From positions 14,308,001 to 14,372,000 of the forward strand of contig JALIGW010000013.1 in NCBI GenBank assembly GCA_023053685.1: a DNA stretch of 64,000 bases, read 5' to 3'. Source of the stretch: Diadophis punctatus similis (Eukaryota > Chordata > Lepidosauria > Squamata > Dipsadidae). Below the pieces are notes generated by a model. That model was given only the letters and a program-made list of their open reading frames with translations. It had not been told where the DNA came from and ran no database searches. Of this stretch, positions 283 to 34,084 are shown in pieces. Made by a program: the position numbers and the translations under genes. The first letter of the stretch is position 1. Every line of letters starts with the position of its first letter.

Positions 283-2115
283 GAAGAGACTACTTCCGAT
301 AGTTGGGTGCTAGAGACCATTTCATCAGGACTCGCACTCGACCTTCTTTCCACCCCACCGGGATTTTTTATGAGGTGCCCCCAGTCCTCGGATTCCCAAA
401 AGCGAGCTCTAATGCTAGCCGCTATCCAGCATCTGTTGGATATCCATGCTATCCAACGGGTTCCGGAGGACCAGCGGGGACAAGGATTCTATTCCAATTT
501 GTTCCTTGTCAAGAAATCCTCGGGGGGATGGAGAGCAGTCTTGGACCTCAAGCGACTGAACAAATACGTTGCCTATAAGAGGTTCAAGATGCACACGCTA
601 CATTCCATATTGGCGTGTGTAAGGAAGGGCGATTTCATGACTTCCATTGATTTGACAGAAGCCTATCTACACGTACCAATTCGGCCTTCCCACCAAAAGT
701 ATCTTCGATTCTGTTACATGTCTGATCATTATCAGTATTCGGCACTGCCATTCAGTCTGTCCTCCGCCCCGTGGGTTTTCACGAAAATCCTAGCTGCCCT
801 AGCGGCAAGCGTGCGGTCTATTCCAATTCGCCTACACTGTTATTTAGATGACATTTTGATTTTATCGTCCACAGTCTCACAAGCGGAGAATGACCTTCAG
901 TTAACTATGCAGTGCTTAGAAGAGCATGGCTTCTCCTTAAATATAGAAAAGAGCCAGCTCAATCCCACTACCCGAATTACTCATCTTGGGGCTATCGTGG
1001 ATACCCTGGAGTGCAGGGTGTTTCTTTCCCAGGAAAGACAGGACAATCTGATCACTATGGTCCAGCAGGTTCTCTGTCTCAGAAGAGCGCCATTGAAGCA
1101 GCTCTCATCTCTATTGGGAAAGATGATTTCGGCCATCCATATTACTCCCTGGGCACAACTGCACTCCAGGGATCTTCAATGGCTATTGTTACCATACCAA
1201 AGGGCAGGTAAGAGTAATTCATCAGCAAAAATCAGCATTCCATCCTCTGTCCGTCGATCCCTCCAGTGGTGGCGCTCCAAGGCGATATCCGAAGGCTCCA
1301 GCTTCTTCGAACCCAACCGGGTGATGGTGACAACAGACGCCAGTCTGCAGGGATGGGGTGCTCATGTACAATCTCAAGTAGCCCAAGGAACGTGGTCTCA
1401 TTCGGAGACACTGTTAAATATCAACATTCTGGAACTCAGAGCAGCATTTCTTGCTCTGCAGCAATTTCACAATGTCCTTCACAACCGGCATGTTCTACTA
1501 ATGACCGACAACGTCACCACCAAAGCGCATGTCAACCGCCAGGGTGGGACGGTTTCCAAAGGTCTCATGTCAGAAGCCAAGGCTCTAGGGCTTTGGGCGG
1601 AGCGCAACTTGCTCTCGATTCGAGCGGAACACATATCGGGAGTCAAAAATATAACAGCGGACTGGCTCAGTCGCAATGCAGTGGACTCGGCGGAGTGGAG
1701 TCTGCACCAGGACATTTTTCAAGAATTGGTACAGCGATTCGGTCTTCCGGTGATTGACCTTTTTGCAACTCCACTCAACGCCAAACTACCGAGGTTTCTC
1801 TCACGTTACCGGTCGCAGGGTGCCGAGGACATAGATGCGCTCCGCTGCCCATGGCCGAAGGGCTTGTTATACGCCTTTCCTCCTCTGGCAGTGATTCCAC
1901 AATTCATTCGTCGAATCATAGCCGAGGAGGCGGAGGTAATTCTACTGGCACCATATTGGCCCAGGAGAACGTGGTTTGCGGACCTCCAAGCGCTTTCGAT
2001 CAGCTCGCCTTGGAGGATTCCTCCGACAGAGTATTCGCTTTCTCAGGAATCCTTGAATCACCCGGATCCGCATTGGTTCAAACTGACCGCTTGGCACTTG
2101 ACCGGTGTAGCCTAA
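283..2115 (+). CDS. DIRS reverse transcriptase / RNase H / DAM-methyltransferase-like polyprotein
   Basis: The frame is open from 283 to TAA 2113-2115. The first ATG is at 370; an upstream non-ATG start (GTG 307) is possible but unproven. Counting residues from 307, the RT domain has the fingers motif SSGGWRAVLDLKRLN and the catalytic box YLDD at 179-182. RNase H follows with candidate catalytic residues D344 (TTDAS), E376 (ILELRAA), D401 (MTDN) and D452 (TADWLSR). The C-terminal part, about 480-602, has the DLFATPLN and YAFPPL signatures of the DIRS methyltransferase-like domain. The product would copy element RNA into DNA. It overlaps the recombinase frame by about 265 bases. No frameshift or stop was seen. 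Confidence 0.88.
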   Translation, partial: EETTSDSWVLETISSGLALDLLSTPPGFFMRCPQSSDSQKRALMLAAIQHLLDIHAIQRVPEDQRGQGFYSNLFLVKKSSGGWRAVLDLKRLNKYVAYKRFKMHTLHSILACVRKGDFMTSIDLTEAYLHVPIRPSHQKYLRFCYMSDHYQYSALPFSLSSAPWVFTKILAALAASVRSIPIRLHCYLDDILILSSTVSQAENDLQLTMQCLEEHGFSLNIEKSQLNPTTRITHLGAIVDTLECRVFLSQERQDNLITMVQQVLCLRRAPLKQLSSLLGKMISAIHITPWAQLHSRDLQWLLLPYQRAGKSNSSAKISIPSSVRRSLQWWRSKAISEGSSFFEPNRVMVTTDASLQGWGAHVQSQVAQGTWSHSETLLNINILELRAAFLALQQFHNVLHNRHVLLMTDNVTTKAHVNRQGGTVSKGLMSEAKALGLWAERNLLSIRAEHISGVKNITADWLSRNAVDSAEWSLHQDIFQELVQRFGLPVIDLFATPLNAKLPRFLSRYRSQGAEDIDALRCPWPKGLLYAFPPLAVIPQFIRRIIAEEAEVILLAPYWPRRTWFADLQALSISSPWRIPPTEYSLSQESLNHPDPHWFKLTAWHLTGVA

Positions 2116-3176
2116 GTAAGCGGGGGGTATCAGAAACAATCATAGACACATTAATGTTGTCACGCCGATCTTCAACCAATCGCATTTACTCTGCAACATG
2201 GAAAAGGTTTTGTGCCTGGTGTTTAACAGTACAACTATGTCCAGTAGAACTAACTATAGTGGGCTTGTTACGGTTTTTGAAGGCTGGTCTAGATAAAGGG
2301 TTGGCTCCCAATACACTAAGACGCCAAATTGCGGCTTTGTCTACAGTACTTACCTGTGATAGCGCGGTTTCATTATCAGCGCATCTGCTGATTCGCCGAT
2401 TTCTGAAGGCGGCTGTTAACATTTCTCCTCCGATTATACACCGCTATCCAACATGGGACCTATCACGGGTATTACTGGCATTGACCGCAGAACCATACGA
2501 GCCGTTGCGTACAGTGTCACTGAGACAACTAACTCTCAAGGTGGCATTTCTGGTAGCCATAACTTCAGCTCGCCGGATATCCGAACTCGCGGCTTTATCA
2601 GTGCGAGAGGGTTTATGTATTTTTCATCCAGATAAGGTTGTGCTCCGATTGGATCCAACCTTCATTCCAAAGGTTAACACACCTTTTCATAGGACACAGG
2701 AGTTAGTGTTACCAGCGTTTTATGCTCAGCCTTCAACTGACTCGGAAAGGCAGTGGCACAACATAGATGTTCGGAGGGCAGTTAAGATATATAACGTACG
2801 CACGGCGTCATTCCGACGCTCCGAAGCATTATTTGTTTGTTTTCAACCAAAATCTATGGGTAAGAAGGCATCACCAGCGCTCATTGGCAGCTGGATCAGA
2901 GCCTTGATAGCAGACATTTACTCTGATCAAAATCTTCCCCCGCCTGAGGGTATAACTGCACATTCCACAAGTAGTGCAGCTACCACGGCAGCGTGGTCGG
3001 TCAGTACTTCACTGGAGGAGGTTTGCAGAGCGGCAACATGGTCCTCTCCAGTGACTTTTATCCGACACTATAAGGTAGACCAATTTGCATCGGCTGACGC
3101 CGAATTTGGGCGACAGGTACTACGTAATGCCATTATACCAGAGGAACACCATGAACAGGGTTCGAACCCACCCTAG
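1851..3176 (+). CDS. DIRS tyrosine recombinase (YR)
   Basis: A 441-codon frame, +2 relative to the RT frame, starts at ATG 1851 and ends at TAG 3174-3176. The first ~85 residues overlap the methyltransferase-like region. The recombinase proper begins near residue 90 with a SAM-like core-binding region (SSTNRIYSATWKRFCAWC). Catalytic-domain landmarks are SARRISEL with the first arginine at R242, the HxxR box at 371-374, and the nucleophile in FIRHYKVD at Y407. At HxxR the arginine is replaced by serine (HSTS), one base away from an arginine codon. That change would be expected to cripple strand cleavage unless it is a family trait. The enzyme would integrate circular DIRS DNA. Confidence 0.85.
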   Translation: MAEGLVIRLSSSGSDSTIHSSNHSRGGGGNSTGTILAQENVVCGPPSAFDQLALEDSSDRVFAFSGILESPGSALVQTDRLALDRCSLSKRGVSETIIDTLMLSRRSSTNRIYSATWKRFCAWCLTVQLCPVELTIVGLLRFLKAGLDKGLAPNTLRRQIAALSTVLTCDSAVSLSAHLLIRRFLKAAVNISPPIIHRYPTWDLSRVLLALTAEPYEPLRTVSLRQLTLKVAFLVAITSARRISELAALSVREGLCIFHPDKVVLRLDPTFIPKVNTPFHRTQELVLPAFYAQPSTDSERQWHNIDVRRAVKIYNVRTASFRRSEALFVCFQPKSMGKKASPALIGSWIRALIADIYSDQNLPPPEGITAHSTSSAATTAAWSVSTSLEEVCRAATWSSPVTFIRHYKVDQFASADAEFGRQVLRNAIIPEEHHEQGSNPP

Positions 3177-3585: not shown

Positions 3586-4641
3586 CTGTTCCTCAGAATT
3601 ATTCTTCTTTCTATTATAAATAAGGAAAAAAGAATTAAACTGATAAAGCTATTAAAGCAGTTATTCATAGATAATGCTGGTGAAATGAGCTCTATGGGTT
3701 ATGAAAAGTTGAAAACAACTGAACAGTAACAACAAGCACGATGGTGTCTTCACAACATGGATGGCTATATCCAAGCCACCATTATTGCTGTGCTCCAAAA
3801 GAAAACTGAATATACAAACCAGTTTTAGCTAATGAGACTTAAGAAATTAGTAGCCGATCACAGTTCAGAGTTGTTTCCTCAGAGAGTCAACAGCATCCTG
3901 TACGTGCTACATACTTAGCAAGAAACCCACTTAGATGAACACTCAAGTAAGTCCTTCAACACTTACAGTATATACATCCAAAACACCTCTCCCCATCCAT
4001 CCCCTCTCAAAATTGCTGCATTTCTACTTGTGATCTTTTCACCTTACCACTGCAGGGCAAATACAAGCCCCAAGAGGAGACAGCAAAAACCGCCAGCTGC
4101 CTCTGTTTGCCTTTAATTAAGAAACCTATGGTGTTTCTCTCTTTCCCCATAAAAAAGGGGGGAGAAGTAGATTAGATTTTTATTGCCATTGTAAATGGAA
4201 ACATGATGATTTAGATATTTTTCATTCAAGTGAAGGTAAAACTAAAGTAGATTGATTTTATCTGGGGCCTTTCAGCTTTAGAAACCACACCATGAGTATT
4301 TTGGACACTCAATGTCGTCCGTCCCCCCATCAATCTTGTGGCAAAATCTCTGAGGTCTTCATAGAAAAATTTCATTTGAGTATTAATCTGAGTAGGAAAG
4401 GAAGACCTGGGATAAAGGTTCATACCACACATTTATCATATTTAAAATTGATCACATTAATAAGAATATAATCAGTGAGATTAATATGTCTTGTACCTAT
4501 CCCATAACAGAGAAGTCCAGAATTATACCAAAGGATGTTGTTTGGTCCAGGAGAATTAATACAATTAGCACTAAAATCTTAATTTGTCCAGTAGGATTAT
4601 CAAAACTGATTCTGCTCCAGATCATATCTTGAATCTAAGAT
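3586..4641. other. AT-rich unique-looking DNA
   Basis: I see no recognisable coding region or repeat. A 68-codon minus frame at 4226-4432 has no recognisable motif. The last ten bases (AATCTAAGAT) are the left target duplication of the next element. Confidence 0.5.
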
Positions 4642-4794
4642 AAGGTGACCAGACGTCCCGATTTTGGCGGGACAGACCCGCTTTTTAATGGTTTGTCCCG
4701 CGTCCCGCCCGCCCTCTTAAAAAGTCCCGATTTTTTGAAAGGGGCGAGGGAGGGCTGGGGGGCGGGCTCTCCCCTGCAGGGACGGCCGGCCGCG

Positions 4795-5127
4795 GCTCAT
4801 GGGGGCGAAAGACAAATACAATTTTCGGCGGGCACGGCTTTGCAAGGGCTTTTCACAAGTTTGGCAAGTTTCACAAGAGCCGTTCGCGTGCAGGGCAGTT
4901 TATAAATAGCGGCCGCCAGGTAGGGAGCCGGCCGGGGTTGCACAGGGCTGGGGGAGGCTCGCTAGCCCGGCAGCTCCGGCCGCAGGAAAGAGCGGGGGGG
5001 GTGCCGTACTGGGAAGGGCCAGCAGCCGCCGCCGCCTGAGGGGGCCACCCCCCCTGCCCGCCCACCCGCTTCGCTGCAGGGGACGCTGCACTGGATCCCG
5101 AGTCGCGCCGGCTCTCCCGCGGCCACG
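4795..5127 (+). promoter_or_regulatory. HES1: Captured HES1/HES4-like core promoter and 5' leader, left copy
   Basis: TTTCACAAGAGCCGTTCGCG at 4870-4889 and GCGGCCGCCAGG after the TATA box match what I remember of the mammalian Hes1 proximal promoter. There a GTTTCACACGAGCCGTTCGC block precedes a TATA box and then GGCCGCCAGG. Here the TATA-like TATAAATA is at 4901-4908 and the ATG is 220 bases downstream. The upstream AAGTTTGGCAAGTTTCACAA resembles the Hes1 Notch/RBPJ region, but the GGGAA core reads GGCAA, so the RBPJ site looks damaged. Activity is unknown. Confidence 0.7.
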
Positions 5128-5232
5128 ATGCCCGCCGACCTGATGGAGAAGAGCTCCTCCTTGCCCGCGGCGGCCATCCCGGCCAGCGCCGGAGGAGTCA
5201 ACGCAGGACGCCCGCCCGCCGCCCACAGCTGA
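5128..5232 (+). pseudogene. HES1: HES1/HES4-like exon 1 coding fragment, left copy (34 codons)
   Basis: ATG 5128 lies in a good start context (GCCACGATGC). The encoded start MPADLMEKSSSLPAAAIPAS lines up with the vertebrate HES1 N-terminus, which I recall as MPADIMEKNSSSPVAATPAS. HES proteins are Notch-induced bHLH repressors. Similarity fades after about VN at residues 24-25, where HES1 goes on to the basic region. The frame reaches TGA at 5230-5232 after 34 residues, before any bHLH, Orange or WRPW sequence. The fragment therefore cannot make a working HES protein. It lies downstream of a HES-like promoter in the native order, so promoter, leader and exon start were captured as one genomic piece. 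Confidence 0.75.
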
Positions 5233-5561
5233 GAGGCCTGCTGCTGCTGCTGCTGCGGCTGGGCACCCAGTCCCGGCGGCGGGAAGGCTGCGGCGGCGGC
5301 CCCAGCCTGCTGAGCCAGCGCCGGCCCGAGGGTCATGGATGCGACTCCTTCGCTCGGGCCGCCCCTGGAAGGTGGAGAGGCGCCTGATGCAGCCCCGCCC
5401 TCTCGAAAAGGCCGGCGTCGCGGTGGGCGGGGCGGCCCGAGCGAAGGAGTCGCATCCATGACCCTCGGGCCGGCGCTGGCTCAGCAGGCTGGGGCCGCCG
5501 CCGCAGCCTTCCCGCCGCCGGGACTGGGGGCCCAGCCGCAGCAGCAGCAGCAGCAGGCCTC

Positions 5562-5666
5562 TCAGCCGTGGGCGGCGGGCAGGCGTCCTGCGTTGACTCC
5601 TCCGGCGCTGGCCGGGATGGCCGCCGCGGGCAAGGAGGAGCTCTTCTCCATCAGGTCGGCGGGCAT
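5562..5666 (-). pseudogene. HES1: HES1/HES4-like exon 1 coding fragment, right copy (34 codons, minus strand)
   Basis: This is the mirror copy of the left fragment: ATG at 5666-5664, same MPADLMEKSSSLPAAAIPAS start, same 34-codon length, TGA at 5564-5562. It differs from the left copy at a few bases; near the end GRLPAAHG replaces GRPPAAHS. The two copies point toward each other, and the divergence shows the duplication is not brand new or that one arm has drifted. It lacks everything downstream of the HES N-terminus. Confidence 0.75.
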
Positions 5667-5935
5667 CGTGGCCGCGGGAGAGCCGGCGCGACTCGGGATC
5701 CGGTGCAGCGTCCCCTGCAGCGAAGCGGGCGGGCGGGCAGGGGGGGTGGCCCCCTCAGGCGGCGGCGACTGCTGGCCCTTCCCAGTACGGCACCCTCCCC
5801 CCGCTCTTTCCTGCGGCCGGAGCTGCCGGGCTAGCGAGCCTCCCCCAGCCCTGTGCAACCCCGGCCGGCTCCCTACCTGGCGGCCGCTATTTATAAATTG
5901 CCCTGCACGCGAACGGCTCTTGTGAAACGACATTA
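5667..5935 (-). promoter_or_regulatory. HES1: Captured HES-like core promoter and leader, right copy
   Basis: It is the reverse complement of the left promoter: a TATA-like element at about 5886-5893 (minus strand), preceded by CGTTCGCGTGCAGGGCA and AGTTTCACAAG-like sequence. The right arm stops at 5927, within TTTCACAAG. The more distal upstream part seen in the left copy is missing here, so the copies are unequal. Confidence 0.65.
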
Positions 5936-6065
5936 GCGGTCTTTTGCCCTCTGCGCATGCGCAGCGTTCTGCGCATGCTCAGAGGGCAAAACCCGGCGTC
6001 CAGGCGGCCCCGCCCCCTTCAGTGTCCCTCTTAAAAAAAAAAATCTGGTCACTTTAATCTAAGAT

Positions 6066-13849: not shown

Positions 13850-14091
13850 AGCTGGACATAGCTCCACTTACAGCCATAATTGAGTCCAAAGTTTGTGTTG
13901 CTAAGTGAGAAATTTGTTAAATGAGTTTTGCTCCATTCTATGACTTTTCTTGCCACATTTGTTAAGTGAATCACTGCAGTTGTTAAATTAGTAACACAGT
14001 TGTTAAGTGAATCTGGTTTCCCCGTTGACTTTGCTTGTTGGAAGGTCGCAAAAAGGGATCACATGACTCTGGGATACTTCAACCGTCATGG

Positions 14092-33348: not shown

Positions 33349-33356
33349 ATTTAATT

Positions 33357-33941
33357 AAGGTGACCAACTTTTTTACAATGAAAAGGAGGACAAATAAATT
33401 GGGGAAAAAATCGTAAATAAAAGAAACATTTTATTCATTGCAACAATAATACACTATAATATGATATATTGTATGCATAATAAAAACATTTGTAACATTT
33501 TATATTGTAATTATGCTTACATGCCTGTTAATTATTATTTAAATGAGTACTTTTCCATTGAATTAATATTTTTGTCAATGTATCATCTTTTAACAATATA
33601 TTGGAAATATCTGAACAAGAAATATCCTTCATATTGAATTTTACGGCAAGTGCTGCAACTAGAGTATCAACATAACATAAGAAGTAAACAAAGCCACTTG
33701 CACGCGGCGCTCTCTCTCAAGGTCTCCCGTGCGGAGCGCATGCATCTCATAATCGCATCTTATACCGCACTGTACCGAGCCTTGACGAATCGTCATGTCA
33801 AATACAAATACATCACATAACGCGCAACAGATTAGTCTTCAAATATCAAAAAGGAGGACATGTAGGAGGACACTTTTCGAGGGAGGACAGAACTTACAAA
33901 AGAAGGACTGTCCTCCCTAAAGGAGGACGATTGGTCACCTT
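33357..33941. mobile_element. hAT-like element with AAGGTGACCA ends
   Basis: AAGGTGACCAACTTTTTTAC on the left and GACGATTGGTCACCTT on the right. The flanks ATTTAATT / ATTTAATG match at 7 of 8. The subterminal AGGAGGACA repeats occur several times. A short minus frame (about 33525-33690, VDTLVAALAVKFNMKD...) might be the C-terminus of a lost transposase; weak. The ends resemble those of the HES-carrying element at 4642. Confidence 0.75.
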
Positions 33942-34084
33942 ATTTAATGGCTATCAGAACAAGGGATGGCTTGCAAAGCCAAAGCTCTTTTTTAAAAAAT
34001 TTGAAACACTGTGTGGAGCCCTGATATTTGGAAAGCCAGTGCTGAGAAAGGAAGCCATCTCTTTTATATGCCTGAGGATTACTA

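Follow-up and report, generated by a model that had tools for sequence, protein, structure and literature searches.

Non-autonomous hAT-type element in the snake Diadophis punctatus similis with an inverted pair of HES1 promoter and first-exon pieces

What kind of element lies near the start of this 64,000-nucleotide stretch of the Diadophis punctatus similis genome (contig JALIGW010000013.1, positions 14,308,001 to 14,372,000; hereafter the window), and whose promoter does it carry twice? A first-pass annotation, made from the sequence alone, had read positions 4642 to 6055 as a transposon with terminal inverted repeats (TIRs) and a 10-bp flanking duplication, whose two inverted arms hold the promoter and first exon of a HES1/HES4-like gene. 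We searched the genome (1.78 Gb, 419 contigs) and scored the best 40 of 2,052 first-look candidates. Each of these 40 places, among them the window's own, covers query positions 1 to 1414, the other 39 at 94 to 98% identity, and the 40 sit on many contigs with differing flanks and clean duplications. Alignment of many copies places the element at 4641 to 6056 (1,416 bp, T-AAGG...CTTT-A, ends TAAGGTGACCAGA and TCTGGTCACTTTA) and shows TIRs (TAARGTGACCAGA, 13 bp) as short as those of hAT elements. A 10-bp flanking repeat, AATCTAAGAT, is indeed present at the window copy, but because many copies fix the ends, it resolves into an 8-bp target-site duplication, the element's terminal base, and a chance match. 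The 8-bp duplication is perfect in 39 of the 40 HES1 copies and agrees at 7 of 8 bases in the remaining one; since the ends were determined independently of it, the duplication is an independent test in those 40. The transposon and its TIRs thus stood, while the duplication length and the limits had to be corrected (Table 1).

Table 1. Features of the HES1 element and its flanks, in window positions
Feature	Position	Strand	Evidence or remark
Left 8-bp target-site duplication, ATCTAAGA	4633..4640	.	0 mismatches at 8 bp
Whole non-autonomous hAT element, TAAGGTGACCAGA...TCTGGTCACTTTA	4641..6056	+	Multi-copy alignment
Left end	4641..4741	+	Family consensus 95% identical (101 bp) to left end of 6,283-bp transposase-bearing element
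Piece common to platform element L087	4743..4812 (approximate)	+	88.5% over 70 columns, older-subfamily consensus 103-172
TRUB2 exon-1 piece, start	4823..4854	+	32 bp exact, older-subfamily consensus vs L089; window copy differs by one C to T
Left HES1-derived piece: proximal promoter, TATA, leader, first 20 exon-1 codons	4857..5189 (limits approximate)	+	
HES1 promoter block, TTTCACAAGAGCCGTTCGCG (parent: TTTCACACGAG...)	4869..4888	+	
TATA box, TTTATAAATAG	4899..4909	+	
HES1 start, MPADLMEKSSSLPAAAIPAS; commonest form in 40 copies ...SSSSPAAAIPAS	5128..5187	+	
Second captured piece in arm, antisense to HES1, reads M[T/A]LGPALAQQAGAAAAAFPPPGLGAQPQ..	5190..5365	-	Common to L089
63-bp spacer between arms, includes TRUB2 exon-1 3' part (..ERRLMQ)	5366..5428	+	
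Right arm: second HES1 promoter and exon-1 start, facing the first	5429..5928	-	
Short hairpin, TGCGCATGCGCA repeats	5942..5991	.	Present in other platform elements too; repeats, as we read them, resemble the NRF1 motif
Right terminal inverted repeat, TCTGGTCACTTTA	6044..6056	-	
Right 8-bp target-site duplication, ATCTAAGA	6057..6064	.	0 mismatches

The estimated number of copies extends well beyond the 40 full-length places. The HES1 promoter block, searched with at most one mismatch, occurs at 458 genome places, and its reversed control at none. Of the 100 places listed, one is exact and is the HES1 gene, while the other 99 share a C-to-A change. With at most two blocks per element, 458 places correspond to about 230 copies or more, an estimate that also takes the other 358 places to be like the 100 listed. 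Divergence was scored for 24 normally oriented copies out of 28 aligned; they differ from their own majority consensus by 0.42 to 1.2% overall and by 0.09 to 0.82% outside CpG, and as best-scoring copies they are biased toward the youngest subfamily. Summed over the alignment rows, 189 of 269 differences fall at consensus CpG sites, a share that suggests germline methylation of the copies. The CpG observed/expected ratio is 0.84 in the element and 0.35 in the window downstream of it. Three open frames of at least 120 aa overlap the element; Pfam found no transposase domain in these three frames, only one chance match below the cut-off, and an Rfam scan of the window returned no family at gathering score. 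Elsewhere in the window, at 307 to 3176, two overlapping long open frames resemble by eye a DIRS-type retroelement, with a reverse transcriptase followed by a recombinase-like frame.

The two ~497-bp inverted arms were confirmed: 4868 to 5365 and the reverse complement of 5429 to 5928 differ by 7 mismatches and one 2-base gap in 500 columns, and each holds the promoter block, TATA box, leader, and ATG that had been described. The likeness of the block to the HES1 promoter held up as well, since alignment of the arm with a published Hes1 promoter fragment, given for a Notch reporter in the accessible portion of PMC4391858, scored 98 over 4857 to 4951, while the best of 500 dinucleotide shuffles scored 39. 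Both promoters point inward across the 63-bp spacer, so a transcript from either would fold back on itself, and folding of the consensus palindrome predicts 516 pairs. We predict self-pairing RNA and an influence on neighboring genes where copies are transcribed.

A genome search with the Pfam Hairy_orange domain (PF07527) returned ten places. One, on contig C364, combines the ancestral form of the promoter block, the exon 1 MPADLMEKSSSSPAAATPASAHATPDKPRTAAEQRK, bHLH exons, and a WRPW end, and is HES1; it lies on a different contig from the window and agrees with the element consensus at 93% over 343 columns with gaps, from AAGTTTGGC to codon 20. Over 319 and 314 aligned bases, the two consensus arms carry 8 and 9 substitutions relative to this gene (2.5 to 2.9%). 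Judged by this match, the donor of the arms is the HES1 gene of the snake's own genome. Of the HES1/HES4-like origin first proposed, the HES1 part therefore stands and HES4 was rejected as donor, being a separate gene on C243 (L052, MPADTMEKPTASPIAGAPAS...) that we take to be HES4 from its N-terminus. In a protein search with the C364 gene's last exon (120 of 512 matches listed), identity was 87 to 92% with HES-1 of six snakes, the best matches (Thamnophis, Crotalus, Liasis, Protobothrops, Naja, and Notechis), at most 75% with lizard HES-1, and 70% with that of Erythrolamprus, the seventh snake entry. Exon 1 was compared in 11 proteins, including six MPAD-starting snakes, one snake entry without a start, and an Anolis sequence that is wholly different. 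One position is valine in the three comparable lizards (SSSSPVAATPAS), in contrast to the six MPAD-starting snakes, which have alanine there except for Notechis with proline. In three of the six snakes the residues read SSSSPAAATPASAHA or nearly so, always around the core SSSSPAAATPAS, and a fourth is alike; this form is one residue from the element's commonest SSSSPAAAIPAS. Since the element's peptide is without the lizard valine, like the six snakes, the donor was probably a snake.

The captured piece begins just downstream of the parent's strong RBPJ site, TGTGGGAAAG, and the parent's second, TTTCACACG, reads TTTCACAAG in the element; we assume both to be RBPJ sites of HES1. Because the strong site was left behind, Notch control has probably been lost, and the carried promoter would be expected to act as a core promoter independent of it. 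Deletion of the site within the captured piece was considered and dropped, as the piece begins after the site, adjoining TRUB2 sequence (see below). The proposal that copies spread Notch/HES-type promoter sequence thus keeps its promoter part, with 458 block places, and is weakened in its Notch part. Furthermore, the divergence between element and parent is far above that among young copies, which places the capture well before the burst or in another snake.

Which transposase could move such an element is suggested by its ends. Among 984 candidate hAT dimerization domains, 150 were scored, and the 900 bp downstream were read for eleven. Downstream of three of these, in open frames of 631, 632, and 669 aa, stands AAAATCTGGTCACCTTA, matching the right end; the other eight have no matching right end within 900 bp. 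Pfam detected Dimer_Tnp_hAT at 3.3e-10 in a 623-aa frame. One partner element is 2,901 bp long, with a perfect 8-bp duplication (AGGATGGA) and its first four bases diverged. Another, of 6,283 bp (L113 and L112, C397:9529766-9536048), has flanks matching at 7 of 8 bases, and its left end agrees with that of the HES1 family consensus at 95%. For the third partner, the stretch read did not extend to the left end. In the 6,283-bp element, the A+T-rich transposase gene is preceded by a block of high G+C content (up to 0.72) in which repeats occur, so acquired sequence may be present even in the form that encodes the transposase. A protein search with the L112 transposase, in the 120 of 227 matches listed (most unnamed), gave an unnamed protein as closest at 95%, and insects (53 to 60%) and fish (41 to 44%) as nearest named relatives; that insects come nearest hints at horizontal transfer. 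With its 8-bp duplications, 13-bp TIRs, and a hAT partner with the same ends, the HES1 element is, as far as sequence can place it, a hAT element.

The same ends recur in a much wider family, which we call the platform. The 17-bp left-end motif, with at most one mismatch, occurs at 13,862 genome places, compared with 23 for the control, and among the places listed 13 facing motif pairs about 100 to 190 bp apart were recognized by eye as short elements. We sampled 20 loci with 23 left ends, almost in list order, omitting short facing pairs, two HES1 copies, and four single matches preceding the last locus. Five of the 23 ends were not closed. For the other 18, a right end that gives an 8-bp duplication completes the element (17 duplications perfect, one with a mismatch), although closing demanded at most one mismatch in the duplication, which in these sampled relatives is therefore no independent test. 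The closed relatives are 426 to 2,113 bp long, with a G+C content of 0.52 to 0.67. Some interiors resemble gene fronts, MALNRNHLPGGGVVPPHGER running up to a GTAACC donor and MGCCGSATSQ up to GTAAGC, and several are predicted to be captured gene fronts. The cargoes of L093 (best 40 of 203 candidates scored, 96 to 100%) and L085 (best 40 of 81, 95 to 100%) are repeated in the genome, and for neither could a parent gene be distinguished among the 40 scored matches, all of them repeated places. Of the 18 closed relatives, 9 have inverted arms in their interior, at least about 100 bp long and 76 to 97% alike, the weakest (in L089) possibly being CAG-type repeats. HES1 is thus one cargo among several on a genome-wide platform, a result beyond the reach of the first-pass annotation.

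Among the platform members, L088 and L095 (C1, 4.75 and 6.57 Mb) form one subfamily with ~300-bp inverted arms, 93 to 97% alike, made of a different G+C-rich cargo. The cargo of a 968-bp relative, L085 (C1:3417709-3418409), contains GTTGCTTAGCAACC, which in our view resembles the RFX X-box of ciliary-gene promoters. Within the window, a ~587-bp element at 33356 to 33942 (ends TAAGGTGACCAA and TTGGTCACCTTA, with GTCCTCC repeats) shows 72% similarity to the HES1 element over the latter's first 57 bp and represents a more distant relative with the same type of ends.

Further variants of the HES1 element bear on how it was assembled. We examined 20 more block places with other spacings: 12 have a perfect 8-bp duplication, six are cut by the stretch read or match poorly at an end, one has a damaged left end, and one has unequal flanks. 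Six of the 20 (L059 to L063 and L078) form one subfamily, 1.3 to 2.3% from its own consensus, whose arms nearly reach the center. We take this subfamily to be the older one and infer that the window subfamily is a center-deleted derivative of it, its 63-bp spacer being the remnant of a longer symmetric center. The 63-bp loop is flipped in 4 of the 40 copies and the center of L061 is flipped relative to that of L060, which fits exchange between arms.

The sampled relative L089 (981 bp), in which HES1 was not seen, encodes TALQGLFAVYKPPGMHWRAVKDTVERRLMQ. Against 120 TRUB2 proteins this peptide gave 113 alignments, the best at 2e-11 in that small set. Platypus TRUB2 searched against the genome (113 of 155 candidates scored) gave 68 matches, of which five, in gene order on C176 with the exon-1 region at 8226584, are the TRUB2 gene; the other 63, L089 among them, are confined to residues 3 to 45, that is, exon 1. 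The TRUB2 junction is known at the protein level only. A pattern search for the exon-1 splice donor found three places, all one mismatch off and without GT, and a PF01509 search returned one place, on C46, which is not the C176 gene. In the older HES1 subfamily, 32 bp to the left of HES1 are identical to the TRUB2 start of L089, and to the right lie the TRUB2 end and the second L089 piece. Since TRUB2 pieces stand on both sides of HES1, HES1 most likely entered an element already carrying TRUB2 exon 1, and the palindrome has its center within TRUB2 sequence. Another relative, L087, shares a piece with the HES1 element and carries the start MAKVAPPDDDYNFIFK of a first exon that we regard as Rab-like, on which Pfam was silent; Pfam and PDB searches with short first-exon peptides likewise returned nothing useful. 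With up to two mismatches allowed, the Rab-like exon end and its GT donor were found at 23 places. The one exact match, C2:7408692, is a candidate parent, and three further places keep the GT with other changes. At C399:1859613, C386:29633625, and C2:2487510, a Rab-like exon end and a TRUB2 exon-1 match are no more than about 240 bp apart, which makes it probable that some elements contain both pieces.

Altogether, we are confident that the locus is a non-autonomous hAT element with an inverted HES1 pair, likely template-switched into an element with TRUB2 exon 1 and likely moved by a hAT transposase encoded elsewhere. The proposed capture of a HES front as an inverted pair by a non-autonomous DNA transposon is thereby upheld, with the parent found, no transposase domain in the element's frames, and duplications in 40 copies. 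Palindromes are error-prone in genome assemblies, which favors an assembly artefact at this one, or a local segmental inverted duplication of HES1; these readings are practically negligible, being refuted by the differing flanks and clean duplications of 40 copies spread over many contigs, and the HES1 gene is found on a contig other than the window's. A Mutator-like (Pack-MULE) identity, with a duplication of 10 bp, would match the flanking repeat at the window copy and recall fly Ssk-FB4, with 9- to 10-bp duplications in the accessible part of PMC8277862, yet it is highly improbable and refuted by the multi-copy alignment, in which other copies have 8 bp, and by ends common to hAT transposase elements. 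Instead of the 9- to 11-bp duplication and MULE transposase of Pack-MULEs, we found 8 bp and a hAT partner, and this membership was rejected.

The remaining alternatives concern the origin and the maintenance of the pair. Capture of HES1 in another snake lineage, followed by entry of the element through horizontal transfer, would account for a HES1 piece 2.5 to 2.9% from the local parent when the 24 copies are 0.09 to 0.82% from consensus outside CpG, and the insects nearest among named transposase relatives fit a family prone to such transfer. Against this, a more diverged subfamily with the same cargo in this genome fits long residence, and the peptide without the lizard valine makes the donor probably a snake, whichever snake it was; we consider transfer distinctly improbable. 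It is also conceivable, if unlikely, that the inverted pair is maintained because hairpin RNA would feed siRNA/piRNA silencing of HES1 or of the family. Inward-facing promoters, the 516 predicted pairs, and inverted arms in 9 of 18 sampled relatives are consistent with such a role, but variants with deleted centers or lost arms persist, and template switching can make inverted arms without selection.

For the favored non-autonomous hAT element, a mechanism can be proposed in which a hAT transposase would recognize the shared ends and move the element in trans. Gap repair or fork switching at short homologies, as modeled in the accessible text of PMC8277862, would add host pieces and make the inverted copy, probably with TRUB2 exon 1 captured before HES1. 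Transcripts from the inward HES1 promoters would then run into their own complement.

In plants, the capture of gene fragments by cut-and-paste transposons is well established, and rice Pack-MULEs favor G+C-rich gene starts. More tentatively, and with rather more doubt than conviction, we suggest that the hAT platform acts as a promoter-dispersal engine, repeatedly capturing CpG-rich promoters and first exons, doubling them into convergent palindromes, and scattering them by the thousands, which would seed transcription starts and self-pairing RNAs matching host developmental genes. If copies are transcribed, the family would spread gene on-switches and self-pairing RNA. With a young family of hundreds of copies, a known parent, and recognizable stages (symmetric center, center-deleted, and flipped-loop), capture, inverted duplication, and spread become testable in one vertebrate. 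Hundreds of replicate insertions of one developmental promoter without its strong Notch site also offer a test of expression rewiring and may show how a genome handles long hairpin sources.

Literature searches for the HES1 promoter letters, the end motif, and gene-capturing elements, which covered few subscription papers, returned no account of this element or of any similar family in snakes. Among known systems, the closest are animal Pack-TIRs, including Pack-hAT, of which the accessible portion of Tan et al. 2021 (PMC8277862) counts 370 in 100 animal genomes, four of them multicopy, with a frog example at three sites. Capture is described there as sparse and almost always single-copy, and multicopy cases are attributed to replication switching plus transposition. 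The element here is like these in having host gene sequence (HES1; TRUB2 exon 1) between hAT ends with target duplications, its own transposase absent, and parent genes elsewhere in the genome (HES1 on C364, TRUB2 on C176). In contrast to the cases in that portion, one cargo is estimated at 230 or more copies, the promoter forms an inverted pair, and pieces of two or more named host genes make the element a mosaic. Drosophila Ssk-FB4, in the same text, is similar in that a gene with its upstream region was captured by an inverted-repeat element and re-transposed, but it has long terminal inverted repeats, 9- to 10-bp duplications, and three loci (one further duplicated), whereas the HES1 element has hAT-type ends and carries its long inverted arms in the interior. 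Foldback elements in general share long inverted arms able to form a hairpin; in the HES1 element, by contrast, the arms lie 227 bp and 128 bp inside the ends rather than at the termini. Plant Pack-TYPE elements, including Pack-hAT, which the available part of PMC8903248 describes as non-autonomous DNA transposons that capture and shuffle gene pieces, are a functional analogue, from which this family differs in its vertebrate host, its promoter-plus-first-exon cargo, and its recurrent internal palindromes. The platform is thus a vertebrate Pack-hAT on a scale above the animal cases that we found in print.
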